From positions 62,001-126,000 of the forward strand of contig JAHLLB010000005.1 of assembly GCA_020444425.1 (NCBI GenBank): a stretch of DNA of 64,000 nt, in the 5' to 3' direction. The translations under genes were made by a program, and so were the position numbers. Shown piece by piece: positions 7,473-39,717 of this stretch. The notes under the pieces were generated by a model. That model had not been told where the DNA came from. It saw nothing but the letters and a program-made list of their open reading frames with translations, and did not search any database. Numbering within the stretch: position 1 is the first letter of the stretch; every line of letters starts with the position of its first letter. Source of the stretch: a bacterium (GTDB taxonomy: Bacteria > Electryoneota > Electryoneia > Electryoneales > Electryoneaceae).

Positions 7473-7795
7473 CCTTCGCTCCCGATCAGAATACCCAAAA
7501 GCCCCCGGAGTATAGCACCCCCACCCCCGCAGGCCAAGAGTGCCCGCCGTCAACACGCCGGAGCGAGGGCCGGATTCTGAGTGCAATCCGTGCAGTCCGG
7601 ACCTGATTTGTGCAGCCGTCAGCCCCGTTACGAACGCATTCAGCCGGCAGGTGTCCGCACTCGCATCATCAGGATCAAGCTGAACCGTAAGTAGAATCAA
7701 AACTTATCGTTGATTGTACAGGAGAGACGAACTGCGGCGCGATTTTTGCAGTATCTTTTCACATGCCAGGGTCACATTCCGCCGGGGGGATACCT
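7473..7795. other. Intergenic region between divergent lgt and propeller genes
   Basis: About 320 bases holding the divergent 5' regions. I see no RNA gene or convincing repeat. GGGGGGA at 7784-7790 is the ribosome-binding site of the plus-strand gene. Confidence 0.5.
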
Positions 7796-14875: not shown

Positions 14876-15155
14876 CACCGAAGGTGCCGTATCTGTATAG
14901 CTCCGGGTGTCAACCCGGAGACTGGTCATGGGTGAGGAGACGGCGGAGCGTGGCGCCGAAGGTGCCGTATCTGTATAGCTCCGGGTGATAACCCGGAGAC
15001 TGGTCATGGGTGAGGAGACGGCGGAGCGTGGCGCCGAAGGTGCCGTATCTGTATAGCTCCGGGTGATAACCCGGAGAGGGGTCATGGGTGAGGAGACGGC
15101 GGAGCGTGGCACCGAAGGTGCCGTATCTGAATAGCTCCGGGTGTCAACCCGGAGA
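14876..15155. repeat. 78-bp tandem repeat, about 3.6 copies
   Basis: The string CCGAAGGTGCCGTATC recurs at 14878, 14956, 15034 and 15112, giving an exact 78-bp period. Each unit holds the palindrome CTCCGGGTG/CAACCCGGAG or its GATAAC variant plus a spacer containing GGTCATGGGTGAGGAGACGG. Copies differ by only a few bases, so the array is young or being homogenised. The period is a multiple of three, which creates a misleading repetitive reading frame on the minus strand. Confidence 0.9.
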
Positions 15156-21265: not shown

Positions 21266-22693
21266 ATGAAGCTTCGAAACGTGTTGTTTGCACTGCTAAC
21301 CGGCCTGATTGCAGTTTCGGCCACCGCCATCCCAATCGAATTGTGGGAAGAAACCTACGCCACCGACGGGCACCAGGCGAAAGCCATGGACCTGGCGATC
21401 TTTGACAACGATGAAGCCGTGCACGCCGTCGCCATTGCCGGCGCTGGCATTACCGGCCCCAGTTTGCGTCTCGATCGCATTGACGGTGACGGCAACCTGA
21501 TCTCCCAGACCACCGTCGCCACGGCGGATTCCGGGTTGATCATGAACGTTCGCCTGCTGCCGTTGCATGATGGCGGCGTGGTCGTCACCTACACCAAGAA
21601 CTGGAAGCCGGAATGGTACGATACCACCGGCACGCCGCAGCATAACCTTTGCGTCGCGCGGGTCGCGGCGAACGGTGACATCCTTTGGAACGACGAAACC
21701 TTCGGCTTCAGCCGGATTGAAAAGCAGGTTCGTGAGGTGGGATTGCTCACCAACACGATCTATTTCGGCGGATGGTGGGGCGCAAGTTCGCAGTCCAATG
21801 GCGGCCGCACCGCGCACATCACCAGCTACGATCTCGACGGCAACCACCTCGGCACGGTGCTGGTGGACGAGCCGCAGGAGATCAGCCGTGTCGCCGACAT
21901 TGAATTCACCGGGGACGCCCTGTTCATGACTGGTTCACTGGTCAACGGCGGCGAGTTCCTGACGCGGGTCAATTACGACGGCGAAATCGAGTGGTCGCTG
22001 CCGTCCGAAATGGACCTGATTACCGAAATGACGATCGGGTTTGATGGCTACATCTACCTGACCGGCATGAACAGCAACCAGAATTATCTCGTCGCCAGCG
22101 CGACGCAGGCCGGTTCGTACAACTGGCAACGGATCTTTGAAGAAGGCGTGCCGAACCCGCCGAGCCAGGCGATTCTGCAGATCCTCGACGGCCGATTGGT
22201 CGTGTGGAAAAACAACCTGCAGCTCGTGCTGATCAGCTCCGATGGCACCCGGTTGTTTGAGGGCGGCCAGTACGGCGAACCCGACGACTGGGACGGCAAT
22301 GCGATTGCGATGTACGCGGACGGCGACCTGCTGCTCAGTTCGTCCGGCGTCGAGGACAGCGTGCTGCTGACCCGTGTCACCAACGGCACCAATGACGTCG
22401 GCGAAACCGGCAACGCGGCCCGTGTCACCGAGTTCGAGCTCGCACCGGCGCACCCGAACCCGTTCAACGCGATGACCACCCTGCAGCTCGCGGTTCCGTC
22501 CGCCGGGCAGGTGCACGTCAGCGTCATGGACATTCTCGGCCGCTCCGTGGACGCGTGGTCACTGAACGCACCGGCGGCAGGCACGTACGAGCTGTCGTGG
22601 TCGGCGAATGGATTCGCCAGCGGATTGTATTTCGTCCGCGCGGTGAGTTCGGCCGGCGCTGTTTCGATGCAGAAGATTGTGCTCGTGCGGTAA
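21266..22693 (+). CDS. Secreted propeller-like protein with T9SS tail
   Basis: A 475-residue protein with signal peptide NVLFALLTGLIAVSATA. Propeller-like repeats occupy residues 25-385 (LRLDRIDGDGNLISQ, CVARVAANGDILWNDE, TSYDLDGNHLGTVL, TRVNYDGEIEWSLP). A T9SS type A domain follows: AHPNPFNAMTTLQLAVPSAG, MDILGRSVDAWSL, SGLYFVRAVS, ending KIVLVR. It is the tailed paralogue of the gene at 19553. Surface or extracellular location is expected; no enzymatic motif is visible. Confidence 0.8.
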   Translation: MKLRNVLFALLTGLIAVSATAIPIELWEETYATDGHQAKAMDLAIFDNDEAVHAVAIAGAGITGPSLRLDRIDGDGNLISQTTVATADSGLIMNVRLLPLHDGGVVVTYTKNWKPEWYDTTGTPQHNLCVARVAANGDILWNDETFGFSRIEKQVREVGLLTNTIYFGGWWGASSQSNGGRTAHITSYDLDGNHLGTVLVDEPQEISRVADIEFTGDALFMTGSLVNGGEFLTRVNYDGEIEWSLPSEMDLITEMTIGFDGYIYLTGMNSNQNYLVASATQAGSYNWQRIFEEGVPNPPSQAILQILDGRLVVWKNNLQLVLISSDGTRLFEGGQYGEPDDWDGNAIAMYADGDLLLSSSGVEDSVLLTRVTNGTNDVGETGNAARVTEFELAPAHPNPFNAMTTLQLAVPSAGQVHVSVMDILGRSVDAWSLNAPAAGTYELSWSANGFASGLYFVRAVSSAGAVSMQKIVLVR

Positions 22694-23518: not shown

Positions 23519-25006
23519 TTATTCTGTCTCCAAATGCCCGACCAATGTCCGCAGCCGTCCCCGGCTCAGGCCCAGATACTTTGCCGTCGCGAGCTGGTTG
23601 CCGTCGAACTTGTCCAACGCTTTCCGCACAATCTCATAGGTCAACTCGTCCAGGTCGAGCCCGTTCGGCGGGAGCTGAACCATCCCCGGCTGCAACACCC
23701 CTGCGCCGCCATCCTCACCGACGCCGCCCTGCATTCGTTGATCCAGCTCAGCGAGGTGCGTCGAATCCAGCTCGACAGCGTTGTACAGCAACACCGCGTG
23801 TTCGATCAAGTTCCGCAACTGACGCACATTGCCCGGCCAGTTGTACTGCTCGAGCATGCGCACCGCTTCCCGGCTGATGAACCGGAAATCACGCTGCTTT
23901 TCGCGAGCGAATTCGGCGAGAAACAGCTGCGCCATCGGCGGAATCGACGCCCGCTGTTCCCGTATCGGCGGAATCTCGATCCGTCCGACCGCGAGCCGGT
24001 AGTAGAGGTCCGAGCGGAAGCCGCCGGCCTGCACCTGCTTTTCCAGGTCACGGTTGGTCGCGGCGATGACCCGAATGTCCAACGGGATCGCCGTCGTGCC
24101 GCCGACACGGTAGATCACCTTTTCCTGCAACGCGCGTAGAAGTTTCGCCTGCATCGGCATCGGGATTTCGCCGACTTCGTCGAGGAACAACGTGCCGCCG
24201 TTCGCGGCTTCCATCTTCCCGCTCGCGCCCTTGGGCAACGCACCGGTGAACGCGCCGCCGACATACCCGAACAGCTCGCTTTCGAACAAACTGTCGCTGA
24301 TCGCGGCGCAATTGACCGTCACGAACGGCTTGCTCGTGTCGTCGCTGTCACCGTAATGCACCACCTTCGCCAGCACTTCTTTGCCAGTGCCGGTTTCGCC
24401 CTCGATCAGCACCGGAATGTTGCGGTCGTCGTTGTAGCGCAACGCTGTATCCACAATCGCGCGGAACTTGCGGCTGAACACACCGATCACGGTCTTGTCC
24501 GCAAGCACGACCGTCGAACGCATCGGCCGGTCGCCGTTCTCAGTGTCGGCCGCCGGAACATCGCCCGACACCTGAGCGGCACGCCGTTTCTTCCGCTTCA
24601 GGTCGTCATACTGCTTCGCCACCCGTTCGACCACCTGCAACAGGTCGGTGATCGGGATCGGCTTGGTCAGCATCTCGGTGGCACCTTCACGCAACGCACT
24701 CAGTGCCGTCTCAACATCCGCAAAGCCAGTAATCAGGACGACTTGCGTATCTTTCCCGTTCGGGTGCGCACGGATTTCATGCAGCAACTCGAGCCCATCC
24801 AGGCCCGGCATACGCACGTCCGAGATGACGATCGGAAACTGTTCCGACTCGAACTGTTTCTTCGCCTCGAGACCGTTGTCGCATTCGACAACCTCGCTCG
24901 CGGTGAACTCCGTCAGCACCCGTGCGAATACCGCACGGCTGATCTCGTCGTCGTCCACCAACAGGATTCTTTTCCGCAATTCGAGCATCGTCGCCCTGTG
25001 TCTCAT
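23519..25006 (-). CDS. NtrC-type sigma-54 response regulator
   Basis: A 495-residue regulator. The receiver domain (about 10-125) has acidic DDD at 18-20 and the phospho-acceptor Asp63 in VISDVRMPG. The AAA+ domain (about 180-410) has Walker A GETGTGKE, the sigma-54 contact loop GAFTGA intact, and Walker B GGTLFLDEVGEIP. A Fis-type helix-turn-helix closes the protein (GNQLATAKYLGLSRGRLRTL). It activates sigma-54 promoters after phosphorylation. No histidine kinase is encoded nearby, so it is an orphan in this window. The start at 25006 is uncertain; ATG 24988 (MLELRKRI) is an alternative. Targets are unknown. Confidence 0.93.
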   Translation of the reverse strand: MRHRATMLELRKRILLVDDDEISRAVFARVLTEFTASEVVECDNGLEAKKQFESEQFPIVISDVRMPGLDGLELLHEIRAHPNGKDTQVVLITGFADVETALSALREGATEMLTKPIPITDLLQVVERVAKQYDDLKRKKRRAAQVSGDVPAADTENGDRPMRSTVVLADKTVIGVFSRKFRAIVDTALRYNDDRNIPVLIEGETGTGKEVLAKVVHYGDSDDTSKPFVTVNCAAISDSLFESELFGYVGGAFTGALPKGASGKMEAANGGTLFLDEVGEIPMPMQAKLLRALQEKVIYRVGGTTAIPLDIRVIAATNRDLEKQVQAGGFRSDLYYRLAVGRIEIPPIREQRASIPPMAQLFLAEFAREKQRDFRFISREAVRMLEQYNWPGNVRQLRNLIEHAVLLYNAVELDSTHLAELDQRMQGGVGEDGGAGVLQPGMVQLPPNGLDLDELTYEIVRKALDKFDGNQLATAKYLGLSRGRLRTLVGHLETE

Positions 25007-25053
25007 GACAATGGATGGAGGGAAGGGGGGATGAACAAGCAGGCCCGTACTTC

Positions 25054-25265
25054 GTATCCGGGGACACTTTGGTGACAACGTGTCCCCGGATACGTCCGTG
25101 CCCGTGTCTTCCCATGCGTCTTGCCCGTGTTGGCTCGGCCAACGCGGGTCCGCCCCACTGCGTCAAATATACGGCGCGGAAATCCACAAAACGCGTGAGA
25201 GTGGTTGAAATCAACCACTCCCGGTCCAGGCCTACGTTTGGATGCCCACGACATTTATGTCGTGG
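25054..25265. repeat. Palindrome cluster upstream of the response regulator
   Basis: A 14-bp perfect stem GTATCCGGGGACAC/GTGTCCCCGGATAC (25054-25093), CCCGTGTTGGCTCGGCCAACGCGGG (25124-25148 in two arms), GAGTGGTTGAAATCAACCACTC (25199-25220), and CCACGACATTTATGTCGTGG (25246-25265). Parts of these recur at 25441-25465, 23055 and 15426. Confidence 0.75.
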
Positions 25266-26125: not shown

Positions 26126-26508
26126 GGCTATCTCCAAGTGATAACAATCAGTTCGGGTTGTGAAAGGAGGGACGAATTCATGAAGAATCACGCACGCACC
26201 CCCGTTATCCGCTATCCGCGTAAAAGGTAGGGATGCCTAACACATCGAGTCAACGAACGCGGGAGCTGCGGGGCTCAAAAACGAACGTGTTCGTGCCGGG
26301 ATTCGGCGGGCCGTCGTTCAAACCCCGTTGAGATTCGACAAGATCGCGGATTGTTGAGATATCGTTCACATGAAAGTGGTCCAGTATGTAATAGACGACC
26401 ACGATATCCGCTGTCTATCACACCTGATGCGCGAGATTGTGCATGACCTGTCTTGCCAGACGCCTGCCTGCTGCCGTATCCTTTCCTGTCCTTACGTTCT
26501 GGAGTTCC
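26126..26508. other. Divergent promoter region, no gene seen
   Basis: About 380 bases between the monooxygenase and the sigma-54 activator. No coding frame with a ribosome-binding site is present before ATG 26509. Confidence 0.45.
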
Positions 26509-28245
26509 ATGCACCACATTTTGTTCATTTGCAAGGGTCCATCCGGCCGCAGTCAAATGGCGGCGGCCTTCGCGCGTCAACTCGCACCGGACAACGTCGA
26601 GATCCACGCCGCCAGCCTCGAGCCGGAGATGGTACACCCCGTCGCACGCAAGGTGATGGCGGAATCCGGTCTTGAAATTCCGGAATCCAGCCCGGCGATG
26701 CAGGAGCTGACCGCCACCAGCTTTGAGGCAGTGGTGACCGTGTGCGTGCGCCTGCAGGAACAAAATCCGCAATTCCCAGGCTCGCCGGCACGGATTCACT
26801 GGGGCTTGAGCGATCCGCTGGTACTGGTGAAGGGAAACGGCAAAGAACTCACCGACCATTTTCGCCGGGTACGTGACGAAATCCGTGACCGGGTCCGCAT
26901 CTTCTTCGAACAGGGCTACTTCGAGGCGATTGTCGAGCTGCAACTCAGCTACGGCAGGCTGCTGAACGCGATGACGGACGGTGTCATCGCCCACGACAAG
27001 CATCGCAAGATCTTCTTCTTCAACCACGCTGCCGAGGACATCACCGGCCTTTCCGCCGATGAAGCGCTCGGATCTGATTGCCACGCCATCATGCCGGGCC
27101 ATTTCTGCGGCAAGGATTGCGAGGTCTGCATGAAGAATCCGAACATCGACGTGCGCGCCGACATTCCGATCGAGTATCGCCGCAAGAATGGCGAAATGCG
27201 CAGCCTGCGCATGTCGATCATGCCGATGATGGACGCTGAGGACCAACGCACCGGCGCACTGATCCTGCTCCGTGACATGACCGAGATGAATCTGTTGCGG
27301 ACACGGCTGGAAGCCAGCCGTGGCTTCCAGGGTATCATCGGCCTGCACCCCTCGATGACCAAGATTTACGCCAACCTGCGCGAGGTGGCGAAGGTCAATG
27401 TGCCGATTCTCATTGAAGGTGAGAGCGGCACCGGCAAGGAATTGGTCGCTCAGGCGATCCACAAACTGAGCCCGCGCACGAACAAGCCGTTTGTTCCGGT
27501 CAACTGCGGCGCACTGCCCGAGGGTACACTGGAATCCGAACTGTTCGGGCATGTCAAGGGCGCATTCACCAGCGCCATCCGTGACAAGAAGGGACGGTTC
27601 GAGCTGGCGGACGGCGGCATCCTGTTCCTCGACGAAATTGGCGAAATCAGCCAGAAGCTGCAGGTGAAACTGCTGCGTGTGCTGCAGGAAAAGTCTTTTG
27701 AACGTGTCGGCGGGGAAGAGCCGGTCAATGTGGACGTGATGGTCATCTGCGCGACCAACCGCAACCTGAAACAACTCACCGACTCCGGCCAGTTCCGCCA
27801 GGACCTGTACTATCGCCTCGCGGTGGTACCGATCCGCATCCCGCCGCTGCGCGAACGCAAGACCGATATCCCCCTGCTGATTGAATACTTCATCGAGCAG
27901 TTTGCCAATGAGAACAACATGGCCGCCGATGGGATTTCCAGCAATTCATTGAACGCGCTGATGCAATACGCCTGGCCCGGGAATGTGCGTGAACTGTCCA
28001 ATGCCATCCACTACGCGATGATCAAATCGCAAGGCGGTGAGATTCAGGAGCACCATCTGTCACCGGAAATATCCAGTAACTCTGTGAAACAGGGTGGACC
28101 GAAACGCGGACGCCGTCCCAAGCTGAACCCCGCCGAGGTGGAACAGGCACTGAAGGAAGCCGGCGGCAACAAAGCCAAAGCCGCGGATTCCCTCGGGGTT
28201 AGCCGCACAACCCTGTACCGCTACATCGAAGAATTAAAAGTGTAA
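26509..28245 (+). CDS. Sigma-54 activator with ArsC/LMW-phosphatase-like and PAS domains
   Basis: A 578-residue protein with GGAG before ATG 26509. Residues 1-135 form a low-molecular-weight phosphatase/ArsC-like domain: P-loop C8-x5-R14 ([13 protein letters not shown]), Cys79 in VVTVC, and Asp102-Pro in GLSDP. Position 86, where thioredoxin-linked ArsC has its third cysteine, is Asn. Residues 145-265 are a PAS domain with four cysteines (C191, C200, C204, C207). The AAA+ domain has Walker A GESGTGKE (about 303), GAFTSA instead of GAFTGA (about 351), and FLDEIGEI. The C-terminus is a Fis-type helix-turn-helix ([20 protein letters not shown]). It probably senses a redox, oxyanion or phospho signal and activates the cytochrome locus just downstream, which begins with a sigma-54-like promoter. 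Confidence 0.88.
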
Positions 28246-28257
28246 TGATTACAGTTC

Positions 28258-28281
28258 TGTCCAGAAAATCATTTCTGGACA
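28258..28281. promoter_or_regulatory. Perfect palindrome TGTCCAGAAA/TTTCTGGACA, candidate activator site
   Basis: Ten-base perfect arms with an ATCA spacer, 13 bases after the regulator stop and about 230 bases before the sigma-54-like promoter. Half-site copies follow at 28289-28299 (TGTTCAGAAAA) and 28379-28389 (TGTTCAGGAAT). Placement and repetition fit an enhancer for the Fis-type activator; it could instead be a terminator, though it has no T-tract. Confidence 0.55.
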
Positions 28282-28507: not shown

Positions 28508-28522
28508 TGGCACACAATCTGC
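28508..28522 (+). promoter_or_regulatory. Candidate sigma-54 (-24/-12) promoter
   Basis: TGGCACACAATCTGC matches TGGCAC-N5-TTGC at all positions except C for the first T of the -12 element; the GG and GC are correctly spaced. Transcription would start near 28534, 20 bases before the first gene of the cytochrome locus and directly downstream of a sigma-54 activator gene. Confidence 0.7.
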
Positions 28523-28553
28523 CAAGGGATGGGCAACTGGAATGGAGTCCGTT

Positions 28554-28796
28554 ATGTCCGTCGAGAACCGCTACCTGCTGGAGATCCTGACCTTGAGTCA
28601 GCGGATGCTCGAAGTTGCGCACAAGGGAACTGAGGTTCGATCGGACACGGAAAGCGGTATCGTCTTTGGCACGTTGCACGATTACGCGATGCACTTGCGC
28701 AAACTTTCCCTGGAACAGATCAAGCGGCACCGTCAGATGGGATGGTTTGACGAAGACGACGAAAAAGCGCTGGATTTTTATCGCGGCACTTTGTGA
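28554..28796 (+). CDS. Small hypothetical protein leading the cytochrome operon
   Basis: An 80-residue protein. I chose ATG 28554, with GGAG six bases upstream; an ATG at 28542 is possible. The product has no signal peptide or cysteine and looks mostly helical, with many charged residues (LRKLSLEQIKRHRQMGWF, then DEDDEKALDFYRG). I do not recognise the family. As first gene behind the candidate sigma-54 promoter and 74 bases before the nonaheme cytochrome, it may be a cytoplasmic accessory or regulatory factor of the locus. Confidence 0.6.
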   Translation: MSVENRYLLEILTLSQRMLEVAHKGTEVRSDTESGIVFGTLHDYAMHLRKLSLEQIKRHRQMGWFDEDDEKALDFYRGTL

Positions 28797-28870
28797 ATTC
28801 GAAAACAAGCAGTAGCGTTGAAGTTACTTCGGCGGTTCAGGGCCGCCAAACATTCAGGAGGAAGCCCCCA

Positions 28871-30340
28871 ATGTTTCGTAACCTGTTAGTCATGATGCTT
28901 GCGATCATGCTGGCTTTTGTGCTCTTCGGCTGTGAAGGCGAAGAAGGCCCACAGGGTCCGGCGGGTCCGCAGGGTGAAGTGGGTGAAGATGGTGAAGACG
29001 GTGAAGACGGCAAGGATGCCACCACTGATCCGTACACGTTCATCGGTAACAACGGTGATGAATGCGCCCACTGCCATGGCGCGACCGTTGACGGCTGGAT
29101 GGGCACCGCCCACCCGAACGCTTATGCTGATCTCGAAGCTGAAGACCAGGAAAACCCGTACTGCCTGCAGTGCCATGTGACCGGTGTTGACGAAATGGTC
29201 GCGTTCGGCGCCACCGAATTCCCGGGTGGCGAAGACATGTACGGCTACGACAACTATTTCGGCGTTGAAGGCGATTCCGCTGCCATGCGTCGTGCAGCCC
29301 TCGAAGGCGTGCAGTGCGAAGCCTGCCACGGCGCCCTCGGCCCGCTGGACGGCGTTGGTGCGCACCGCGCTGAAGTCGGCCTCTCGACCATCTGGGAAGA
29401 TGTCGGCGGCGAAATTGAATTCGAATCCACCTGCATGCCGTGCCACGAGCGCCAGCTCGAAGAATGGCAGATGTCCGGCCATGCCAACGCCGGTGGCAAC
29501 CTCGAAGGTTTCCGCGAAGAGCATTATGCCGGCGGTTCCTGCGCCCCGTGCCATACGGGCGAAGGTTTCATCGCGGCCAACGATCCGGCGCATGCTGACT
29601 ACGACGGCCCGTACAGCTGGGTCGGTTGCCAGACTTGCCACGATCCGCACAATGCGAACAACCCGGGACAGCTGCGTAACGTCGATCCGGTCTACGTTGA
29701 ATTCCATCCTGGCTACGATCCGGAAGAAGATGGCGAGATGGGGACGATGGACGGCTACTTCGCCGGCCAGACCTGCGCCCAGTGCCACCACGCGCGTCGT
29801 GACACCGACAACGTGTTGAACCAGATCGCGGAAGGCTACGGTCACTTCGGTCCACACAGCTCGCCGCAGATGGACATGTTCATCGGTTATGGCTGCTACG
29901 AAATCGATGGATACGAGTACGAGCGTGAAAACTCGCACCAGAACGTCCTGAGCAACGAAGAAGAAAACGGCTGCGTGGCCTGCCACATGGTCCGCTTCGA
30001 AGAGCTGCACGGTGAAGAAGCTGAGCACGTTTACCACCAGTTCGCTCCGGAAGGCGCGGCCTGCTATGGTTGCCACAGCCTCGATCCGGGTGACTTCGAC
30101 AAGGGTGGCGTCCAGACCGACACCGAAGCCAAGATGAACGAGCTCGCGGCTGCCCTCGGCTACACGGACTACATGGACTTCGAAGCGAACTTCGACAGCC
30201 AGGCTGACGGCGTGACTGTGCCTGAGCGCGAAGCTGCCTACGCACTGGTGTTCGTCATCAGCGACGGTTCGCACGGCATCCACAACCCCAGCTACTCGAT
30301 GGATCTGTTGCAGAACGCCATCGATCACCTGGCGGAATAA
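28871..30340 (+). CDS. Nonaheme c-type cytochrome lipoprotein with collagen-like linker
   Basis: A 489-residue protein starting at ATG 28871 behind AGGAGGAA. The lipobox LFGC puts the lipidated cysteine at residue 21. It is followed by a short collagen-like and acidic linker (GPQGPAGPQGEVGEDGEDG), then nine CxxCH heme-binding motifs (CAHCH, CLQCH, CEACH, CMPCH, CAPCH, CQTCH, CAQCH, CVACH, CYGCH). The last 80 residues carry no heme. The acidic linker could extend the heme domain from the membrane, so this is a good candidate for the outer-surface or barrel-associated terminal reductase. It is the first cytochrome of the locus. Confidence 0.88.
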   Translation: MFRNLLVMMLAIMLAFVLFGCEGEEGPQGPAGPQGEVGEDGEDGEDGKDATTDPYTFIGNNGDECAHCHGATVDGWMGTAHPNAYADLEAEDQENPYCLQCHVTGVDEMVAFGATEFPGGEDMYGYDNYFGVEGDSAAMRRAALEGVQCEACHGALGPLDGVGAHRAEVGLSTIWEDVGGEIEFESTCMPCHERQLEEWQMSGHANAGGNLEGFREEHYAGGSCAPCHTGEGFIAANDPAHADYDGPYSWVGCQTCHDPHNANNPGQLRNVDPVYVEFHPGYDPEEDGEMGTMDGYFAGQTCAQCHHARRDTDNVLNQIAEGYGHFGPHSSPQMDMFIGYGCYEIDGYEYERENSHQNVLSNEEENGCVACHMVRFEELHGEEAEHVYHQFAPEGAACYGCHSLDPGDFDKGGVQTDTEAKMNELAAALGYTDYMDFEANFDSQADGVTVPEREAAYALVFVISDGSHGIHNPSYSMDLLQNAIDHLAE

Positions 30341-30407
30341 TCGGCAGTAGCAGACTGGACGGTACCATGCCAGACACCGTCACCGTCTGTATCGGTTGAC
30401 CATTACG

Positions 30408-30449
30408 GACGACCGCCGGCGCCCCCAACATCCGGCGCAGGCGGTTGTC
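30408..30449 (+). terminator. Strong hairpin inside the cytochrome locus
   Basis: GACGACCGCC pairs with GGCGGTTGTC (one G-U), with an inner GCGCC/GGCGC stem. It has no T-tract. It may lower read-through from the nonaheme gene into the barrel gene or protect the upstream mRNA 3' end. Confidence 0.5.
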
Positions 30450-30518
30450 TGCTTTCGAAGGTCAAGCTAACACGTTGCAATACATGGGCTTACTTCCTTT
30501 CCCAAATGGGAGGAACGC

Positions 30519-31784
30519 ATGAACAGGAATTGGGGACGCTGGACAATCGTCACCCTGACAGCCGTCGCACTGCTTGCTGTCGCGGGCACCGCAACGGCTG
30601 ACGATTTCCGGCTGAAAGGGTCCATCGGTGGCAGCGCCTACGGCTACCAGGATCCCGACAACCAGCACCACGTGTGGATGGTGCAGCAAACGAGCGCGTC
30701 GCTGTACAAGACGGGATCCCCGTGGTCCCTCCATTTCAGCGGCGGCTGGACCGGCGACAACGTCTATAAGGAAGGCGTGGAGGACGACGTCCTCCGCTTC
30801 ACCCGCGGCTACCTGCGCTACGGCGATCTCGGATCACCGGTGCGCGCGAAGCTCGGCCGCTTCTTCCTCGTCCGTGGTCCGGCGATCGGTGTGCTGGACG
30901 GCATTGATGTCAACTACCGCTTCAAGCACGGCGTAAACGTTGCCCTCTTTGGTGGCCTCTGGGGCCCGATCACCCGGGAATTCGAATTCGAAGATCCGGA
31001 TGAGTCGATGGCGTTCGGTGGTGAGGTCGGCTGGGTGGGACGTAACGTGCTCTGGGCACGCCAGACCCACATCGCACTCTCCTACGCGAACATCCAGCGT
31101 GACAAGGAAGAGCTGCGCAATCGGGTCGGCCTGCAGACCACGCACCGGTTCACCAATTCCATTACGTGGTACAACCTGTTCCGTTTCCGCACCGAGGGCA
31201 CCCCGCTGCGGCGCTTCATCAGCCGCCTGCGCATGAACGGCGAGATCTGCTCGCGGATGCTGGAAGTCTCGGCGATTTCGGCTGAAGCGCCGGATGAAAG
31301 CTACTTTGCCGACTTCGATGAAACGACATTCTTCCGTGTCCGTGCCGCCGCCGACCGCTGGTTGGTCAAGGACATGTGGGGCTTGGGATTTGACGTCGCA
31401 GCCCTGATGACCGACGAGCCCGGCTACCGCATCGGACCGTACGCCAAATTCCCGTTCGGCCGCATCGGCTACCGGTTCTACGCCGGCGATCAACCGACTG
31501 CGAACGGCTTCTGGGCCCAGGCCAATTACATGATGCTCGACCAGCTCGAAGTGTACGGCTACGGTTCATTCGCCAGCTACGAATGGGAAGCGTTCGACAA
31601 CACGAACGACGACGCAAGCGAAATCCTGTCGCTGTACGGCGGCGTCAACTACTACCCGGCTTTCTTGCACGGTGTGTCGATGAAACTCGAGTACCAGCAC
31701 TTCCAGACACCGCAGTACGATCAGGACCGCCGGGCGATGATTGGCCTGCGCTGGGGATTTGACACCGCGGAGGTGACACGATGA
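30519..31784 (+). CDS. Outer-membrane beta-barrel (porin-like) of the cytochrome locus
   Basis: A 421-residue protein with GGGAGGAAC before the ATG and signal peptide VTLTAVALLAVAGTATA. The mature part is rich in alternating aromatic and polar residues in strand-sized runs (FRLKGSIGGSAYGYQ, SWSL-type strands such as WSLHFSGGWTG, RIGYRFYAGDQ, LYGGVNYYPAF, AMIGLRWGF), as expected for a barrel of about 16 or more strands. It has no CxxCH motif. In porin-cytochrome conduits such as MtrCAB a barrel sheaths a multiheme cytochrome; this gene sits between two cytochrome genes and overlaps the next by four bases, so the same role is likely. Sequence similarity to MtrB is not obvious. Confidence 0.75.
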   Translation: MNRNWGRWTIVTLTAVALLAVAGTATADDFRLKGSIGGSAYGYQDPDNQHHVWMVQQTSASLYKTGSPWSLHFSGGWTGDNVYKEGVEDDVLRFTRGYLRYGDLGSPVRAKLGRFFLVRGPAIGVLDGIDVNYRFKHGVNVALFGGLWGPITREFEFEDPDESMAFGGEVGWVGRNVLWARQTHIALSYANIQRDKEELRNRVGLQTTHRFTNSITWYNLFRFRTEGTPLRRFISRLRMNGEICSRMLEVSAISAEAPDESYFADFDETTFFRVRAAADRWLVKDMWGLGFDVAALMTDEPGYRIGPYAKFPFGRIGYRFYAGDQPTANGFWAQANYMMLDQLEVYGYGSFASYEWEAFDNTNDDASEILSLYGGVNYYPAFLHGVSMKLEYQHFQTPQYDQDRRAMIGLRWGFDTAEVTR

Positions 31785-32608
31785 CGACGAAACACACCAT
31801 CCGCATCGCTGCCCTGCTGATCGGGCTGCTGACCATTGCCTGGTTCGCCATCGGCGGGAACTACGGCCACCTGAACTTCAACCATCCGCTACACGTCGCG
31901 GACGCCGGAATGGCCTGTGAAGACTGTCACGCAGGCATCATGGACACGATGCTCGACGACATGATCCCGGTGCCGAACCACGACACCTGCGAGATGTGCC
32001 ACGACGTTGACGACGATTGCGAAACCTGCCACGTCGGCGATCCGATGGCTGCGCCTGCGGTGTACGCCGGTACGAAGTACACAACCTTCGCGCACGGCAA
32101 CCACGGTGATCTCGACTGCGTCGCTTGCCACGGTCCCGCCGAAGAGATGGAACCCGGCTACCCCACCAGCGAAAGCTGCCAGGGTTGTCACGAGGATCTC
32201 GAGGTAACACCCTCGACGCACCGTCTTGAAACCTGGGTGCACGATCATGGCATGGACGCGATGATGAGCGAGAACGATTGCGCCGCCTGCCACACCCAGA
32301 ATACGTGCGACGACTGCCACCAGGGCGAAAATATCCTGGCGAACACCCCGCACCCGCCGGAGTGGCGCTTCACCCATTCGCTGGATACCATGTATGGCTC
32401 GGAATGCCTGTCCTGCCACGAAACCCGTGACGACTGCATCGCTTGCCACCGTGCGACCGTGCCGACGCCGCACCCGCTCGGGCCAACGTACGCCAACAAC
32501 GCGGACGGCGGTGAACACGTTGATGAGGCCAGCGCCTTCCTGCTCGCCTGCCTCGCGTGCCACGATGTCGAAAACCAGGACCCGGTCTGCGCCCGGTGCC
32601 ACCAGTAA
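31781..32608 (+). CDS. Undecaheme c-type cytochrome
   Basis: A 275-residue protein overlapping the barrel gene by ATGA, so coupled in translation. An N-terminal hydrophobic segment (IAALLIGLLTIAWFAIGG) is a signal peptide or membrane anchor. It has eleven CxxCH motifs (CEDCH, CEMCH, CETCH, CVACH, CQGCH, CAACH, CDDCH, CLSCH, CIACH, CLACH, CARCH), one heme per 25 residues, with the last only one residue from the C-terminus. Extra histidines (FNHPLHV, FAHGNHG) are candidate distal ligands. Such dense packing fits a wire-like electron carrier; by position it could thread the barrel, as MtrA does. Confidence 0.88.
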   Translation: MTTKHTIRIAALLIGLLTIAWFAIGGNYGHLNFNHPLHVADAGMACEDCHAGIMDTMLDDMIPVPNHDTCEMCHDVDDDCETCHVGDPMAAPAVYAGTKYTTFAHGNHGDLDCVACHGPAEEMEPGYPTSESCQGCHEDLEVTPSTHRLETWVHDHGMDAMMSENDCAACHTQNTCDDCHQGENILANTPHPPEWRFTHSLDTMYGSECLSCHETRDDCIACHRATVPTPHPLGPTYANNADGGEHVDEASAFLLACLACHDVENQDPVCARCHQ

Positions 32609-32620
32609 AGGAGACGGACC

Positions 32621-33589
32621 ATGCTGAAGAAACTTGATACACGCTGGCTCCTCCCGATCCTGGTACTGACCGTCGCCGGTCTGCTGACGGGCTGTGGGAG
32701 TGAAGTCGCGGATGACTGGGATCCAGCCTCGCCCGCCGAGGCACGGCACCCGTTTGGTGAAACCAGCCACGCATCGTACATGGTGGCCCAGGAGTACGAT
32801 TTCGCCCAGTGTACCGAATGTCACGGTGACGAGCTGCGCGGGGTCGAACTCGGCGATCCGATGGACCCGGTGCGCGCATGCACCGAATGCCACAACACCA
32901 ACAACCACTTCGTTTACTTCGACAATGCGTTCGAACACTCGCAGTGGATGAGTGAAAACGAATACATGATGGACGAGTGCTATACCTGCCATTCCGCGAC
33001 CAGTCAAGCCGCAGATCAGCTGGACGTCGACTTCGGCGGAAGCTGCTCGTCCGAAGGCTGCCACGACAGCGAACTCGGTGCCCTGGCCTGCAACACCTGC
33101 CACGGTGACTTCGAGGGCAGCGCGTCCGTCATGATCGACTGGGCTCCCGAAAAGGGCGCACACATGACGCACCTTGCCGGCAGCGGCTGGCGCGCGGAGA
33201 TGACCTGCGCCGACTGCCACAGGCAACCCACTCAGGCCGTCGCCAACGGTCACTACAACGATGACACACCGGGCATGGTCGAAATCCGTTTCGGCAGCAC
33301 CGCACGGACTGGCGATTTTGATCCGGAGTGGAAAACGGACACCAGCACCTGCTCCAACGTCTACTGCCACGGGGGTGGTGAGGTTGACTGGCGGCTGCAG
33401 AACGTTGAGTTCACCTGCACCTCGTGCCATATGTATCCGCCGCCGGTCGAGCAGGGCCACCCGGATAACGATGATTGTGTCTCGTGCCACGGGGCTGTCG
33501 TCGGTGCGGACGGTGATGATGCTGATACGTTCGTCGAGATCTTGAACGAAGATCTGCACATCAATGGATCTGTCAACTTCAACGAGTAG
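32621..33589 (+). CDS. Multiheme lipoprotein with CxxCH and CxxxxCH motifs
   Basis: A 322-residue protein, 12 bases after the previous gene, with AAAGGAGACGG as ribosome-binding site. The lipobox LTGC gives lipidated Cys25. Nine heme motifs are visible: seven CxxCH (CTECH twice, CYTCH, CNTCH, CADCH, CTSCH, CVSCH) and two of the longer CxxxxCH type (CSSEGCH, CSNVYCH). The CSNVYCHG string is the signature of the CxxxxCH/CxxCH domain known from Geobacter outer-surface cytochromes. It is likely attached to the outer membrane and part of the same conduit. Confidence 0.87.
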   Translation: MLKKLDTRWLLPILVLTVAGLLTGCGSEVADDWDPASPAEARHPFGETSHASYMVAQEYDFAQCTECHGDELRGVELGDPMDPVRACTECHNTNNHFVYFDNAFEHSQWMSENEYMMDECYTCHSATSQAADQLDVDFGGSCSSEGCHDSELGALACNTCHGDFEGSASVMIDWAPEKGAHMTHLAGSGWRAEMTCADCHRQPTQAVANGHYNDDTPGMVEIRFGSTARTGDFDPEWKTDTSTCSNVYCHGGGEVDWRLQNVEFTCTSCHMYPPPVEQGHPDNDDCVSCHGAVVGADGDDADTFVEILNEDLHINGSVNFNE

Positions 33590-33650
33590 TACAAGTAGAA
33601 ACACGGAACTTGAGGAAACCACATTTCCTTCACTAAGGAGGCATAGATAC

Positions 33651-34184
33651 ATGCGAAAGATCCTGATCTTGCTCCTCGCCATCTTCGTGGTGGGAGCCTA
33701 TAGCGCTGACGTGTTCGCGCAAGACCACGCGTTCATCGGTGCGAAAAAGTGTGGCATGTGCCACAAGGGCGAAAAGAAAGGCATGATCCTCGAGAAGTGG
33801 GAAGAAGGTCCGCACGCCAAGGCGTACGAAACCCTCGCCACCGATGAGGCGAAAGCCATCGCCACCGAAAAAGGCCTTGGCAACCCGCAGGAAGCGGCCG
33901 AATGTCTCAAGTGCCACGTCACCGGCCACGGCATGGACGCAAGCCTGACCGCCGATCTCGATATGGCCAACGGCATCTCCTGCGAAGCCTGCCACGGCGC
34001 TGGTGCCGACTACAAGTCGATGAAGATCATGAAAGATCGTGAAGCTTCCATCGCCGCAGGCATGGTCGCCGCGCCGAAAGAAGGTTGCGTGTCCTGCCAT
34101 AACGAAGAGAGCCCGACCTACAAACCGTTCGTCCTGGAAGAGTACTGGGCGGAGATCGAACACGGTCTTCCCGAGGGCGAATAG
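33651..34184 (+). CDS. Tetraheme periplasmic cytochrome (cytochrome c554-like)
   Basis: A 177-residue protein starting at ATG 33651 behind AAGGAGG, with signal peptide ILILLLAIFVVGAYSADVFA. It has four CxxCH motifs (CGMCH, CLKCH, CEACH, CVSCH). The arrangement FIGAKKCGMCHKGEKKG, then AAECLKCHVTGHG, then GISCEACHGAGADY matches the cytochrome c554/c-prime domain, where such proteins are soluble electron shuttles. It is probably the periplasmic link between the inner-membrane quinol-oxidising proteins encoded downstream and the outer-membrane cytochromes upstream. Confidence 0.88.
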   Translation: MRKILILLLAIFVVGAYSADVFAQDHAFIGAKKCGMCHKGEKKGMILEKWEEGPHAKAYETLATDEAKAIATEKGLGNPQEAAECLKCHVTGHGMDASLTADLDMANGISCEACHGAGADYKSMKIMKDREASIAAGMVAAPKEGCVSCHNEESPTYKPFVLEEYWAEIEHGLPEGE

Positions 34185-34233
34185 TGAGTCGTTTTCCGTG
34201 TGAAACTGCCGTCAGTCCCCCAGACGGCGTGTC

Positions 34234-34268
34234 GGCCTGCAGCCGTGGAGCCCCCAAGGCTGCAGGCC
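34234..34268 (+). terminator. Perfect 11-bp hairpin after the tetraheme gene
   Basis: GGCCTGCAGCC and GGCTGCAGGCC with a 13-base loop, about 50 bases after the stop. No T-tract. It divides the locus into an outer-membrane part and an inner-membrane part. Confidence 0.6.
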
Positions 34269-34509
34269 ACATTTCCACACGGTTTCTTGTCGTCAGAAGT
34301 TTGTGAAGATTTGCACGAGCGGGTGTCGGTGAAGCACCCGCTTCGTTGTTACAAACTTAGAGGTTCGGAGAGCTTAACAATCGGTATTGAGGAGGGTTCG
34401 TTATTATATTCACAATGGCTGGATTGATCGAACGGCAAGCGATACCACGAAATGCCGAATTCTGACGCCGGCCAGCCTGAGACCGATTGTTTCCATGCAC
34501 AAACAACTT

Positions 34510-34552
34510 CGTGAGGAATACCTCACGCACTTAACGGACCCCACAGGGGTCC
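34510..34552 (+). promoter_or_regulatory. Twin hairpins in the leader of the 19-heme gene
   Basis: CGTGAGG-AATA-CCTCACG (34510-34527) and GGACCCC-ACA-GGGGTCC (34536-34552), both perfect 7-bp stems, 70-110 bases before the start. The 34185-34622 gap has no supported gene; these could be leader-RNA control structures or protein sites for a second promoter. Confidence 0.5.
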
Positions 34553-34622
34553 ACGCGTTGAACGACACGACACGGCAAGACGGGGTTCTGTTCAACGTCT
34601 AACCTGGTGGAGATGGATTCAG

Positions 34623-37199
34623 ATGCACGCGCAACCGCACACTCGTATCGGGTTCTTTCTGCTGATCTGGCTGCTGCCGGTTCTGCTGTTCGCGCAGGCG
34701 GCGGATGATTGCCTGATGTGTCACGCTGATACGGAACTGGAAGCGGAGGATGGTTCCATCGTCGGCGTTGACGAAGAATACTTCGGGGACAGTGTTCACG
34801 GTTTCTTCGATTGTGTCGATTGCCATGATCAACCCGGAGCGGACTGGGAAGACCTGCCGCACTTCAGCGTCTACCACCCGGTGGATTGCAGCATCTGCCA
34901 CGAAGACGCCGCAGGCAGTTACGATGGCAGCTTCCACGGTCGTGCGCTCGCAGGTGGCGAAGCCGAGGCGCCAGAATGCTCGCAGTGTCACGGTTCTTCG
35001 CAGGATCCCCATCGGATTCAGTCTGTTGGTTCAGGTGTTGCGGAAAATGCATGCCGAGTCTGTCACCGCAAGGAAACTCAGGCGTACCGCGGATCAGTGC
35101 ACCAGGTCGCACACGATCAGGGCAAACCAAGCCCGGGCTGCACCTCCTGCCACCCGACGCATGGCGCAGAGCTACCACCATCTGCTGGTGCGGTAAACAA
35201 TCTCTGTCTTTCCTGCCACAAAGATGCAATGCGGTCGGTGATGATCGGCGGCCACCCGTTCGGAGAAACGGAACAGGGCGCGATCAACTGTGCATCGTGC
35301 CATGATGTACACGCGACACACATCCCGGAAGTTGACTCCGGCACATTGCAGGCTTGCGTCGAATGCCACCCGGGCTACGAATCCCAGTTCGCAGGATCGG
35401 TGCATGAAGAAATGCTCGAATCCGAAAAGATGAACTGTTTGTCATGCCACAAAACGCATCAGGTTGCGGATACTGAAGAAGAAACGGAATTCGGCTGCGG
35501 TCAGTGCCATGAAGACGCGGAAGCCGTCTATCGAACAAGTGCTCATCGAATGGCACGTCTGCACGGGGACGTTGTCGCCGCAGAATGCGCGGACTGCCAC
35601 GGCGGCCACCATATTCTCCCGGCTTCCGATCCGGAAAGCCTGGTTCACCACGACAATATTCCAGGGATGTGCGGCGAATGTCATAGTGACAACACGGTGA
35701 TCACATCTGACTACGTTCGTTTGCCCATCTCACTGCCCAGCTATGAACGATCCGTGCATGGCATGGGACTGCAGGCAGGCAAGCCCACGGCAGTTTGCAC
35801 CGATTGTCATGGCAGCCATAACCTGCAATCAGCCAACGTTTCCACGAGTATGGTTGCGCGTCAGAATTTGACGCAGACTTGCGGACAATGCCATGAGGAA
35901 GAGGCGGCAATCTTTGGTGAATCGGTGCATGGCCGAGCGGTACAGCACGGCATCAAGGATTCTCCAGATTGCACTGGTTGCCATGAGGAACACCTGATTC
36001 TTCCGATCAGTGATCCCGATTCTCCAGTGAACCCGTCGAATATCAGTCATCACGCCTGCCGCGAATGCCACGAAGATCCAGAGTTGGCAGCACGCTACGG
36101 TCTTCCCACGGAAGTTGTGGAAAGCTATGAAGATAGCTATCACGGTTGGGCGCTTTCCCGTGGCGGCGGCATGGTCGCATCTTGCGAGGATTGCCACGGA
36201 ACTCACAATATCAAAAGCATTCACGATCCGGATTCCCGGATCCATCCGGATAACGTAGTTGCCATGTGTGGCGAATGCCACGACCAGTCCAACCCGACTT
36301 TTGCAGCCAGCTACAGTCACATCTCCGCTCGCGGTGCGTGGGGCATCCACGACTACGCGCGGGTGATCTACATCATCCTGATCGCGATCGTGCTCGGCGG
36401 TATGGCGTTCCACAATGGTCTCATTCTGTTCAAGACCATCCGCCACCACAAGCGCCACCACGAAGCGCAGGAAGCCGTGTTACGCATGACGAAGAACGAA
36501 ATCTGGCAGCATATCCTGCTCGCGTTCACCTTCATTGTGCTTGCGATTACCGGTTTTGCCCTGCGCTACCCGGACGCCTGGTGGGTCAACATCTTGACCA
36601 GCCTTGGGATGACGGAAACGGTCCGTGCCTTCACCCACCGCCTCATGGCCGGGATGATGATCGCCACGTCGTTCTACCACATCGCCTACCTCTGGTTCAC
36701 CGCGCGTGGACGTGAACTGATGAAGGCGATGATCCCGCATCCGAAGGACGCCGGTCGTGCGCTCGGCACAATGCTTTACTACATGGGCTTGAAGACCAGG
36801 CAGCCAAACCACGGCATGTTCGACTACACGCAAAAAGCCGAGTACTGGGCCCTCGTCTGGGGAACGATTGTCATGGCTCTGACCGGCTTCATCCTGATGT
36901 ATCCGGACCTGGTGACCGCGTTCCTGCCGGCATGGGTCATTCGAGTCAGTGAAACCATTCACTTCTACGAAGCGATTCTCGCTGTTGGTGCGATCATCAT
37001 CTGGCACTTCTTCTTCACCATCTTCATCCCGCGTGAGTATCCGATGAGCTGGATCTGGATTACGGGAAGAATGCCGAAGCACGAGTGGGACCACCACCAC
37101 AGCGATGAAACGAACGAACTGGGTCGTGAACCCAAGATCTTGCCCCCCACCGGCAAGTACGCCGACGGAGAGAAGGATGATCCGCTTCTTCCGCATTAA
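34623..37199 (+). CDS. 19-heme cytochrome c fused to membrane cytochrome b
   Basis: An 858-residue protein with signal peptide GFFLLIWLLPVLLFA. Nineteen CxxCH motifs lie between residue 30 (CLMCH) and about 553 (CGECH), arranged as repeated modules of the form SVHG..CTDCHGSHN..CGQCH. The C-terminal third (about 575-810) has five membrane helices with histidine pairs (WQHILL, FTHRLMAGM, FYHIAYLW, IHFYEAIL, WHFFFTIF) of the di-heme cytochrome b561/HydC type. The same logic, multiheme c joined to a quinol-oxidising b domain, is known in Geobacter CbcL, which has about half as many c-hemes. It is probably an inner-membrane quinol dehydrogenase feeding the periplasmic cytochromes. It overlaps the next gene. 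Confidence 0.9.
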   Translation: MHAQPHTRIGFFLLIWLLPVLLFAQAADDCLMCHADTELEAEDGSIVGVDEEYFGDSVHGFFDCVDCHDQPGADWEDLPHFSVYHPVDCSICHEDAAGSYDGSFHGRALAGGEAEAPECSQCHGSSQDPHRIQSVGSGVAENACRVCHRKETQAYRGSVHQVAHDQGKPSPGCTSCHPTHGAELPPSAGAVNNLCLSCHKDAMRSVMIGGHPFGETEQGAINCASCHDVHATHIPEVDSGTLQACVECHPGYESQFAGSVHEEMLESEKMNCLSCHKTHQVADTEEETEFGCGQCHEDAEAVYRTSAHRMARLHGDVVAAECADCHGGHHILPASDPESLVHHDNIPGMCGECHSDNTVITSDYVRLPISLPSYERSVHGMGLQAGKPTAVCTDCHGSHNLQSANVSTSMVARQNLTQTCGQCHEEEAAIFGESVHGRAVQHGIKDSPDCTGCHEEHLILPISDPDSPVNPSNISHHACRECHEDPELAARYGLPTEVVESYEDSYHGWALSRGGGMVASCEDCHGTHNIKSIHDPDSRIHPDNVVAMCGECHDQSNPTFAASYSHISARGAWGIHDYARVIYIILIAIVLGGMAFHNGLILFKTIRHHKRHHEAQEAVLRMTKNEIWQHILLAFTFIVLAITGFALRYPDAWWVNILTSLGMTETVRAFTHRLMAGMMIATSFYHIAYLWFTARGRELMKAMIPHPKDAGRALGTMLYYMGLKTRQPNHGMFDYTQKAEYWALVWGTIVMALTGFILMYPDLVTAFLPAWVIRVSETIHFYEAILAVGAIIIWHFFFTIFIPREYPMSWIWITGRMPKHEWDHHHSDETNELGREPKILPPTGKYADGEKDDPLLPH

Positions 37200-39717
37200 A
37201 AAATCAACCGCGCAGCGAGGGGTGATCTCATCTTTCGCTGTGGCGGCGTTCATGTTGACCTTCCTGCTGTTTTCAATAACAGCAGGAGCGTTTGCGCAGG
37301 ACGACGAAACCTGCGAGATGTGTCATGATGACCCGGACATGTCCCGTATGGAACAGGGCATCCCGCAATCCCTGTACGCGAATTCGGCGATGATCGAAGA
37401 GTCGGTCCATGCCGGATTCGGTTGCATCGACTGCCACCAGTCGCTGGATGGTGTCGAGGATTGGCCGCACGAGCCGAACTTGCCGGGCGTTGACTGCTCG
37501 ATGTGCCACGATGACGCGTTCGAAGAGTACATGGACGGGTTCTATCAGCACCTCGAGGCGCGCGGGTTCAGCAACATTCCCGGGTGTACGTCCTGCCACG
37601 GCAACCACGAGATCTCCGGTGAGGCCGACACACGCAAAGTCTGCGGTGTCTGCCACAATCAGGAGGTGAAGACGCTGGCGAAATCCGTCCACGGCACCAC
37701 CACGGACGCCACCATCTCCTGTACATCGTGCCACGCCGCGCACACGAAGAACGAACAGGGTGACATGCTCGAAGCCGATTGGCGGCTTGAAGTGACCGAC
37801 AAGTGCCTGAGCTGCCACCGGGACGATTCCGAAGGCTACCTCAAATCGGAACACTACACCGCTGTCAAGTCGGGCAGCGAAGAAGCTCCGATCTGCGTTG
37901 ACTGCCATGGTTTCCACGACATCTATGCCGTCGATGACCGGCACTCACCGGTGCACGTCGACAACATGGATGCTACCTGCTCGCAGTGTCACGAGGGCAA
38001 GGAAGCCACTGTCCACCGCAAGAGCGGGGTCGATGCCCGCCTGATGACCTGCGCCGCCTGCCACACCGGCCACGAGACCCATTTCGAAGGTCAGGCCGGC
38101 GGACACTTCCAGGAAGAAGTCAGCCTGACCTGCAACCGCTGTCATGAGAAAGATGCACACACGGACGACAACCTCGCCCACGCGTCCATCATGGGCGGGG
38201 AAGAAGGCACAGAATTCTCGTGCCTGCAGTGCCACTCGTACCACTACGAGGACGCCACCGAAGCTCACAAGGCCGGCGGCGGCACCTTGAGCTGCGCCAG
38301 TTGCCACGAGGAAGAAAATGACCTCTGGGCACGTTCCGCGCACGGTGTCGCCTATCGCAAAGGCCACACCGAAGCACCGAACTGCGAAACCTGTCACGGT
38401 GACGGCCAGATCCAGAAAATTTCCGAAGAGTTTGACGGACAATCGATCATTTCGCTGTGTGCGTCCTGCCACGCCGACCGTGACATGATTCTCCGCTTCC
38501 AGCTCAACCCGAACGCCGTCAGTGGCTACCTCAACACCTACCACGGCAAGGCGTATTCGCTGGGCTATCAGGGCGAGGATTTCGCGACTTGCGTCTCGTG
38601 CCACGACAACCACCTGATCCTGCCGCGCGACAATCCGGAATCGTCCATCGCGCAGCAGCACATCATGGAAACCTGTGGCCGCTGCCATGACGATGTAAAC
38701 AAGAACTTCGTCGCCCAACTACAGCACTACGATCCGATGGCGCACGAGGAACACCCGGTTCTTGACGTGATCCACGTGTTCATGGTCTGGTTGCTGCGGA
38801 TCACGCTCACCGTCTTCGGCATTCACACCCTGCTCTGGCTGTGGCGAGCCGGCTGGGATGGCATCCGCCATGGCCGCAAGATCCGGGGACGCAAGGGACA
38901 GGTGCGGTACATGCGCTTCGGAGTGTTCGAACGCGTCCAGCACGGTATCGTGATCGTCAGCTTCCTGCTGCTCGCGATGACCGGCCTGCCGCTGAAGTAT
39001 TCCTACACCGAAGCGTCCTACTGGATCGCGAACAACCTCGTCGATCTGCGCACCATGGCAATTCTGCACCGTATCGGCGCCGGCATGACCTTCACCTACT
39101 TCGCGCTGCACCTCGGCGGCCTGATGTACAAGCTCGTGCGCCGCAGGTTGACGCTGAAGAGCCTGCTCTGGGGTGTCGACAGTCTCGTGCCGCAACCGCG
39201 TGACATTAAGGACTTCTTCCAGCACATCGGTTTCTTCATCGGTGTCGCGGAACGGCCGACCTTCAACCGGTTTACCTACTGGGAGAAGTTCGACTATATG
39301 GCGGTGTTCTGGGGTGTCGCGGTGATCGGCGCGTCCGGCCTGACCCTGTGGTTCCCGGAATTCTTCACCAAATTCCTGCCGGGCTGGGCGATCAACGCTG
39401 CAATGATCATCCACTCCGAGGAGGCACTGCTCGCAACCGGCTTCATCTTTACCATACATTTCTTTAACGAGCACTTCCGTCCTGAGAACTTCCCGATGGA
39501 TGAAGTCATTTTCACGGGACGTGTCAGCGAACACTACATGATGGAAGAGCGCAAGGAGTGGTATGACCGGATGAAGGCGGAGGGCAAGCTGGACACCATG
39601 CGTGTCAAGCCGATGGCCGTGATTCCGCGAATCCTGCTCTACACCTTCGGTTTCAGTGCCCTGGCGATCGGGCTTGCGCTGCTGGTTCTGATCGTGGTCG
39701 GAACATTCACTGGCTAG
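37177..39717 (+). CDS. 17-heme cytochrome c fused to membrane cytochrome b
   Basis: An 846-residue protein starting at ATG 37177, inside the end of the previous gene, with GGAG five bases upstream. The signal peptide is [20 protein letters not shown]. Seventeen CxxCH motifs run from residue 46 (CEMCH) to about 500 (CGRCH). Membrane helices follow at about 530, 587, 629, 705, 741 and 816; histidines in [35 protein letters not shown] and TIHFFNEHF are candidate heme b ligands. It is a diverged paralogue of the 19-heme protein. The 23-base overlap suggests that the two are made together and may form one complex. Confidence 0.9.

Follow-up and report, generated by a model that had tools for sequence, protein, structure and literature searches.

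The window, the 64-kb stretch of DNA analyzed here, is part of a 4.48-Mb genome (91% complete) from an uncultured member of the phylum Electryoneota. Six c-type cytochrome genes lie on one strand between 28.8 and 39.7 kb and together encode 69 heme motifs, distributed as 9, 11, 9, 4, 19, and 17 in gene order; this script count agrees exactly with the figures of a first-pass annotation of the same DNA. By open reading frame (ORF), nine CxxCH motifs are found in 28793–30340, eleven in 31781–32608, seven together with two CxxxxCH motifs in 32621–33589, four heme motifs in 33564–34184, nineteen CxxCH in 34623–37199, and seventeen in 37105–39717. A six-frame scan of the whole window (stop-to-stop frames longer than 60 amino acids) yielded two or more CxxCH motifs in no other frame. 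An ORF with zero heme motifs (30519–31784) lies between the first and second cytochromes, and lipobox sequences (LFGC and LTGC) are present in the translations, their lipid cysteine being invariant among aligned orthologs. The likely starts of several genes differ from those of the longest ORFs: 26509 for an upstream activator gene, 28554 for a small ORF, 28871 for omc9, 33651 for c4, and 37177 for bc2. With these starts, the locus comprises omc9 (28871–30340), the barrel gene (30519–31784), c11 (31781–32608), lipo9 (32621–33589), c4 (33651–34184), bc1 (34623–37199), and bc2 (37177–39717), all on the forward strand. A chance arrangement is excluded because relatives throughout the phylum carry these genes in a similar order.

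The product of the heme-free ORF was modeled with AlphaFold2 from an input alignment of only six sequences, drawn from the window and related loci, and the resulting model has 22 strands with a mean pLDDT of 77. Foldseek matched it to solved outer-membrane barrels with E-values down to 1e-10 and TM-scores of about 0.3–0.5, the matches being to barrels in general. No family match was obtained from Pfam at an E-value of 0.01 or from PDB profiles at an E-value of 10. The modeled product of 30519–31784 is thus an outer-membrane barrel, an assignment that the first-pass annotation had made dependent on such a model, and its account of a barrel and two lipoproteins encoded on the same strand is borne out. 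The start of c11 overlaps the stop codon of the barrel gene, and the two remain neighbors in relatives from several families. In PDB-profile and Pfam searches, c11 matches c7-type cytochromes; it has no match to TIGR03508 (DmsE/MtrA-type) at an E-value of 0.01 and reaches only 8e-5 against the MtrA chain 6r2q_A. No plasmid relatives of c11 were found. Its neighbor lipo9, a predicted lipoprotein cytochrome with an invariant lipid cysteine in its orthologs, scores above the cut-off for TIGR01904, a CxxxxCH/CxxCH domain. The genes for c11 and lipo9 are neighbors, and this gene order is conserved in relatives.

The lipoprotein–barrel–cytochrome half had been likened to the MtrCAB conduit, a comparison that holds for the porin–cytochrome-like layout but not for the families of the barrel and c11, which are not those of MtrB and MtrA. 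As in MtrCAB of Shewanella, a barrel and a wire are combined with a surface cytochrome, and the heme arms of bc1 and bc2 match DmsE/MtrA-type profiles, albeit below the cut-off. The MtrB barrel has 26 strands, whereas the barrel of the locus has 22 predicted strands and lacks an MtrB_PioB match; moreover, c11 is c7-type, and no OmcA/MtrC-type protein is present. An assignment to MtrCAB was ruled out because the barrel has no MtrB_PioB match and c11 is not DmsE/MtrA-type. Another parallel in layout is offered by OmbB-OmaB-OmcB of Geobacter, likewise a cluster of a barrel, a multiheme cytochrome, and a multiheme surface cytochrome with a putative regulator gene adjoining, and the CxxxxCH/CxxCH domain of lipo9 belongs to a family first described from Geobacter. 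For the barrel and c11, the likeness to OmbB and OmaB is one of gene layout; the inner partner c11 carries 11 hemes rather than 8, and the locus adds a second, OcwA-like lipoprotein as well as quinol-side proteins. The putative regulator adjoining ombB-omaB-omcB, OrfS, is reported not to control that cluster (PMC4589669).

That second lipoprotein is omc9, whose best PDB match is 6i5b (E-value 1.8e-15, summed over several short stretches), the structure of OcwA from Thermincola potens; nitrite and sulfite reductases rank after it. OcwA is a nonaheme, NrfA-related protein proposed to be a surface terminal reductase of an electrode-reducing bacterium, and it slowly reduces nitrite and hydroxylamine (PMC6703420). 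With OcwA, omc9 shares nine hemes and a C-terminal region of the NrfA superfamily, and a surface location has been proposed for OcwA. Cytochromes of the OcwA type are marked by open distal sites at hemes 2 and 5 and by a His-Met heme 9. In contrast to OcwA, omc9 is a predicted lipoprotein of a double-membrane phylum and carries a collagen-like linker, a feature named in the first-pass annotation; this glycine-rich stretch, which follows the invariant lipid cysteine, is kept in six orthologs. A Pfam match to Cytochrom_C552 lies above the cut-off, and a script motif scan found no CxxCK motif in omc9. Homologs characterized as nitrite or sulfur-compound reductases had been named in advance as an argument against electron export. 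Such relatives do exist, since the superfamily of omc9 includes nitrite and sulfite reductases, but the nearest solved relative is OcwA, itself a proposed surface reductase.

At the inner-membrane end of the locus, bc1 and bc2 each join a large multiheme part (19 and 17 CxxCH motifs, respectively) to a membrane cytochrome b, as originally described. The b domain of bc2 was modeled by AlphaFold2 as six long helices with a pLDDT of 90, and its sole significant fold match is FdnI of E. coli formate dehydrogenase (1kqf_C; E-value 1.8e-5, TM-score 0.77 over the FdnI chain), which is also its best sequence match by HMM comparison (E-value 1.9e-10). In the HMM alignment, H18, H57, H155, and H169 of FdnI, which we take to be the heme-b ligands of that structure, fall on H588, H630, H745, and H760 of bc2, with residues numbered along the translation from 37180. 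These four histidines are conserved at 99–100% among 115 homologs of bc1 and bc2, and two further b-domain histidines in the same set, H549 (99%) and H644 (96%), are also conserved. The b domain of bc1, which keeps the conserved histidines, was assigned by sequence profiles, with Ni_hydr_CYTB above the cut-off and a match to the formate dehydrogenase gamma subunit. Upstream of the pair, c4 encodes a tetraheme c554-type cytochrome (Cytochrome_C554, E-value 1e-17), a predicted periplasmic carrier.

A multiheme arm combined with an FdnI-like b domain and four aligned heme-b ligands sustains the proposed resemblance to Geobacter CbcL, which has nine c-hemes and a six-helix di-heme b domain and acts in Fe(III) reduction (PMC9129911). 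Homologs of CbcL/MtrH/MtoC carry 3–23 hemes, occur in 15 phyla, and sometimes adjoin mtr genes; they are found in both Fe(III) reducers and Fe(II) oxidizers and are thought to be bidirectional (PMC6295460). Both bc1 and bc2 have this CbcL/MtrH/MtoC architecture, which joins an N-terminal multiheme c domain to a cytochrome b with six helices and likeness to FdnI/HydC (PMC6295460, PMC9129911). Compared with CbcL, they carry 19 and 17 hemes rather than 9, their b domain has two extra conserved histidines, and they form a tandem pair drawn from two separate clades.

A genome-contig scan confirmed at least 576 relatives of bc2, the best 80 of which span many phyla. In a tree of the b domains, built by a quick method, midpoint-rooted, and containing some long branches, bc1-like and bc2-like sequences form two clades with a support of 100. 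Among the loci of those best 80 relatives, bc1-like and bc2-like genes share the retrieved locus in at least 36, and a c4 homolog lies near bc2 in at least 26; these values are lower bounds because many of the contigs are short. Outside the phylum, a barrel gene within 10 kb of bc2 was seen in just 4 of the 80 loci, many of them on short contigs, so bc2 by itself does not imply export. The synteny search proposed in the first-pass annotation showed the gene set recurring within the phylum: the related locus L035 keeps the order activator, small ORF, omc9, barrel, c11, lipo9, c4, and bc1, and the majority of the set is present in L036, L037, L042, L047, L048, and L051. In several relatives, the set is interrupted by extra multiheme genes or spread over more than one contig. 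A 17-heme protein of approximately 680 amino acids, absent from the window and without blastp matches to its proteins, adjoins or sits between bc1 and bc2 in L037 (11764–13815), L046 (7090–9132), and L050 (11988–14033).

The gene for a predicted sigma-54 activator (26509–28245, forward strand) precedes the cytochromes. It combines a low-molecular-weight-phosphatase/ArsC-like domain with a PAS domain, a sigma-54 AAA+ domain, and a Fis-type helix-turn-helix (Pfam LMWPc, PAS, Sigma54_activat, and HTH_8); its start was chosen from relatives, the longest ORF beginning at 26437, and the gene lies upstream of position 28508, from which the first-pass annotation had counted the locus. An activator gene also sits ahead of the cytochrome genes in L035, L037, and L048, and in all four orthologs the CX5R-S loop of the ArsC-like domain and four PAS cysteines are kept. 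The genome contains rpoN. Beyond the activator stop codon lies a palindrome, TGTCCAGAAAATCATTTCTGGACA (28258–28281), a predicted activator site (UAS) that is its own sole match at two or fewer mismatches in the 4.48-Mb genome. In 1.72 Mb of retrieved DNA, the only copies with 0–1 mismatch are those at the orthologous spot of L035 and L048, the search pattern having been drawn from these same three sites. A role for TGTCCAGAAAATCATTTCTGGACA as a terminator, given its position 13 nt past the activator stop, was disfavored, as it lacks a U-run and its arm sequences are conserved in relatives.

A predicted sigma-54 promoter with the −24/−12 element TGGCACACAATCTGC (28508–28522, forward strand) begins at exactly that first counted base and has one mismatch to TGGCRC-N5-TTGC. 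Near-matches to the −24/−12 consensus number 17 in the window against 12.8 expected, so that the element alone is not above chance, and a strict scan for TGGCAC-N5-TTGC-W returned one near-match, elsewhere in the window. Support for TGGCACACAATCTGC comes instead from position, since similar elements stand at the matching place in relatives: L037 and L048 carry one ahead of the small ORF, as the window does, and L035 has a weaker one. This small ORF (28554–28796, forward strand), the first gene past the predicted promoter, encodes a conserved protein of approximately 80 amino acids with 39–60% identity in L035, L037, and L048 and no family match. With the adjacent activator, rpoN, the unique conserved palindrome, and −24/−12 elements at matching spots, the sequence argues for the dedicated sigma-54 switch that had been proposed. 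A related link is known in Geobacter, where extra RpoN in one strain was accompanied by upregulation of omcB (PMC2725144); in the present case, unlike that one, the activator gene adjoins the cytochrome genes, and the genome holds a single copy of its candidate site. A second sigma-54 response regulator, with receiver and AAA+ domains, is encoded near the locus on the opposite strand of the window (23519–25078).

The description of the genes as one locus is upheld by their single strand and recurrent gene set, but the 438-nt gap between c4 and bc1 contains a strong hairpin (34234–34268, forward strand), a possible transcript boundary. The region 34215–34270 folds at −31.8 kcal/mol (z −3.5), and no U-run follows the hairpin. 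From its sequence, the locus may be split into two transcripts at this gap, and the sigma-54 promoter may therefore serve the first six genes only. No Rfam families were detected between 22 and 45 kb.

Of the readings considered, electron exchange spanning the entire envelope has the strongest support in these data, drawing on the heme motifs, the barrel and FdnI folds, the heme-b ligands, the OcwA relationship, the synteny, and the regulatory footprints. We further infer an outward direction and an external acceptor, and assign a probability of about 0.7 to the reading that the locus encodes a complete outward extracellular electron transfer chain. In such a chain, bc1 and bc2, as CbcL-type proteins whose b domains resemble FdnI, would oxidize quinol at the inner membrane, and electrons would pass through their periplasmic arrays of 17–19 c-hemes to the tetraheme c4. 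The 11-heme c11, predicted to be set as a wire in the 22-strand barrel, would carry them over the outer membrane, and the lipoproteins omc9 and lipo9 would deliver them to an acceptor outside the cell, for example an oxide of iron or manganese, an electrode, a humic substance, or another cell. The ArsC-like/PAS activator, acting through the palindrome at 28258–28281, would probably turn on at least the first transcript, conceivably in response to a redox or oxyanion signal.

The direction of flow is the point at which this reading meets its first competitor, in which the surface cytochromes take up electrons from Fe(II), FeS, or a partner cell, and these reduce the quinone pool at bc1 and bc2. 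Homologs of CbcL/MtrH/MtoC in Fe(II) oxidizers, thought to run both ways (PMC6295460), suit such a scheme, and haem-copper oxidase matches in the genome provide a possible electron sink. Against it stand the proposed role of OcwA, the nearest solved relative of omc9, as a terminal reductase (PMC6703420), the presence in lipo9 of a domain known from Geobacter surface cytochromes, and the part that CbcL plays in reducing Fe(III) (PMC9129911). These points do not settle the direction; we regard inward flow as unlikely. The organism evidently has several other respiratory options, since its genome contains three heme-copper oxidase matches and a dsr operon, and flow through the locus could be outward or inward. 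Family matches on contig C21 identify dsrA with a neighboring NIR_SIR gene, DsrC, and DsrM; on the same contig (L143, 5239–18130), a DsrD-like small ORF, DsrK, DsrJ, DsrO, and DsrP were recognized by eye only.

The relatives of omc9 raise a different possibility, namely that it acts as an enzyme at the outer membrane on a soluble compound of nitrogen or sulfur, such as nitrite, hydroxylamine, or sulfite, with the rest of the locus feeding it electrons. Its matches to MccA, a sulfite reductase, and to nitrite reductases, its Cytochrom_C552 match, and the slow reduction of nitrite and hydroxylamine by OcwA (PMC6703420) are compatible with this role; yet MccA and the nitrite reductases come behind OcwA, CxxCK is lacking, and a soluble substrate could reach the periplasm, leaving the barrel, the 11-heme cytochrome, and a second surface-type cytochrome superfluous. 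We consider such an enzyme improbable. Still more doubtful, to the extent that we give it very little credence, is an unrelated porin beside a purely periplasmic cytochrome chain: the contact between the barrel and c11 is putative, and the barrel matches are general and without a Pfam or PDB-profile family, but the two genes overlap, remain side by side in relatives that span several families, and are flanked by two lipoprotein cytochromes.

Several further features of the genome and the window were recorded. On contig C60 of the same genome (L137), two overlapping genes (4569–6311 and 6260–9817) encode proteins of 580 and 1185 amino acids with 20 and 46 CxxCH motifs and only weak DmsE-family matches. 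A five-heme QrcA-like protein (L141, 6542–7189; contig C46) is encoded on the window's own contig, approximately 48 kb upstream of the locus, and could be ActA of alternative complex III. The genome yielded no match to the MqnA/MqnD family. Within the window, TGGCRCCGAAGGTGC recurs three times with 78-bp spacing (14951–15121), possibly as a tandem repeat, and three secreted proteins (7763–10210, 10878–13139, and 21266–22693) carry Por_Secre_tail, a type IX-like C-terminal sorting domain.

The combination of parts had been called undescribed. Its elements are of known types and several have precedents, but no account of the whole assembly or of the paired bc1 and bc2 was found in the open-access literature searched, where absence counts as weak evidence. 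For Calditrichaeota and Zixibacteria, the same literature yielded nothing on a cytochrome with fused b and c parts; for BccR/CbcBA it held only unrelated uses of the letters, and Electryonea is not mentioned in it by name. A paper that includes Electryoneota covers sulfur cycling and respiration.

Returning to outward transfer, the pairing of bc1 and bc2 invites a tentative extension, which we hold as a whole to be possible but doubtful. The two might form an ancient paired unit, working either as a heterodimer or as two quinol oxidoreductases that are each suited to a different acceptor potential, in which H549 and H644 might hold a third heme b and the 17–19-heme arms might span the periplasm and feed the conduit with few diffusing shuttles needed. 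If this is true, the pair, whose members adjoin each other in many phyla, would be a common electron-export module of the inner membrane, as yet undescribed. Should the reading of the locus as an export chain be right, an uncultured FCB phylum would gain a readable electron-export system, an OcwA-like reductase would be placed in a double-membrane envelope, and a paired CbcL-type module would be recognized across many phyla. With a predicted binding site and promoter, the switch lends itself to direct testing, and the ArsC-like and PAS domains of its activator hint that electron export responds to a redox or oxyanion cue.
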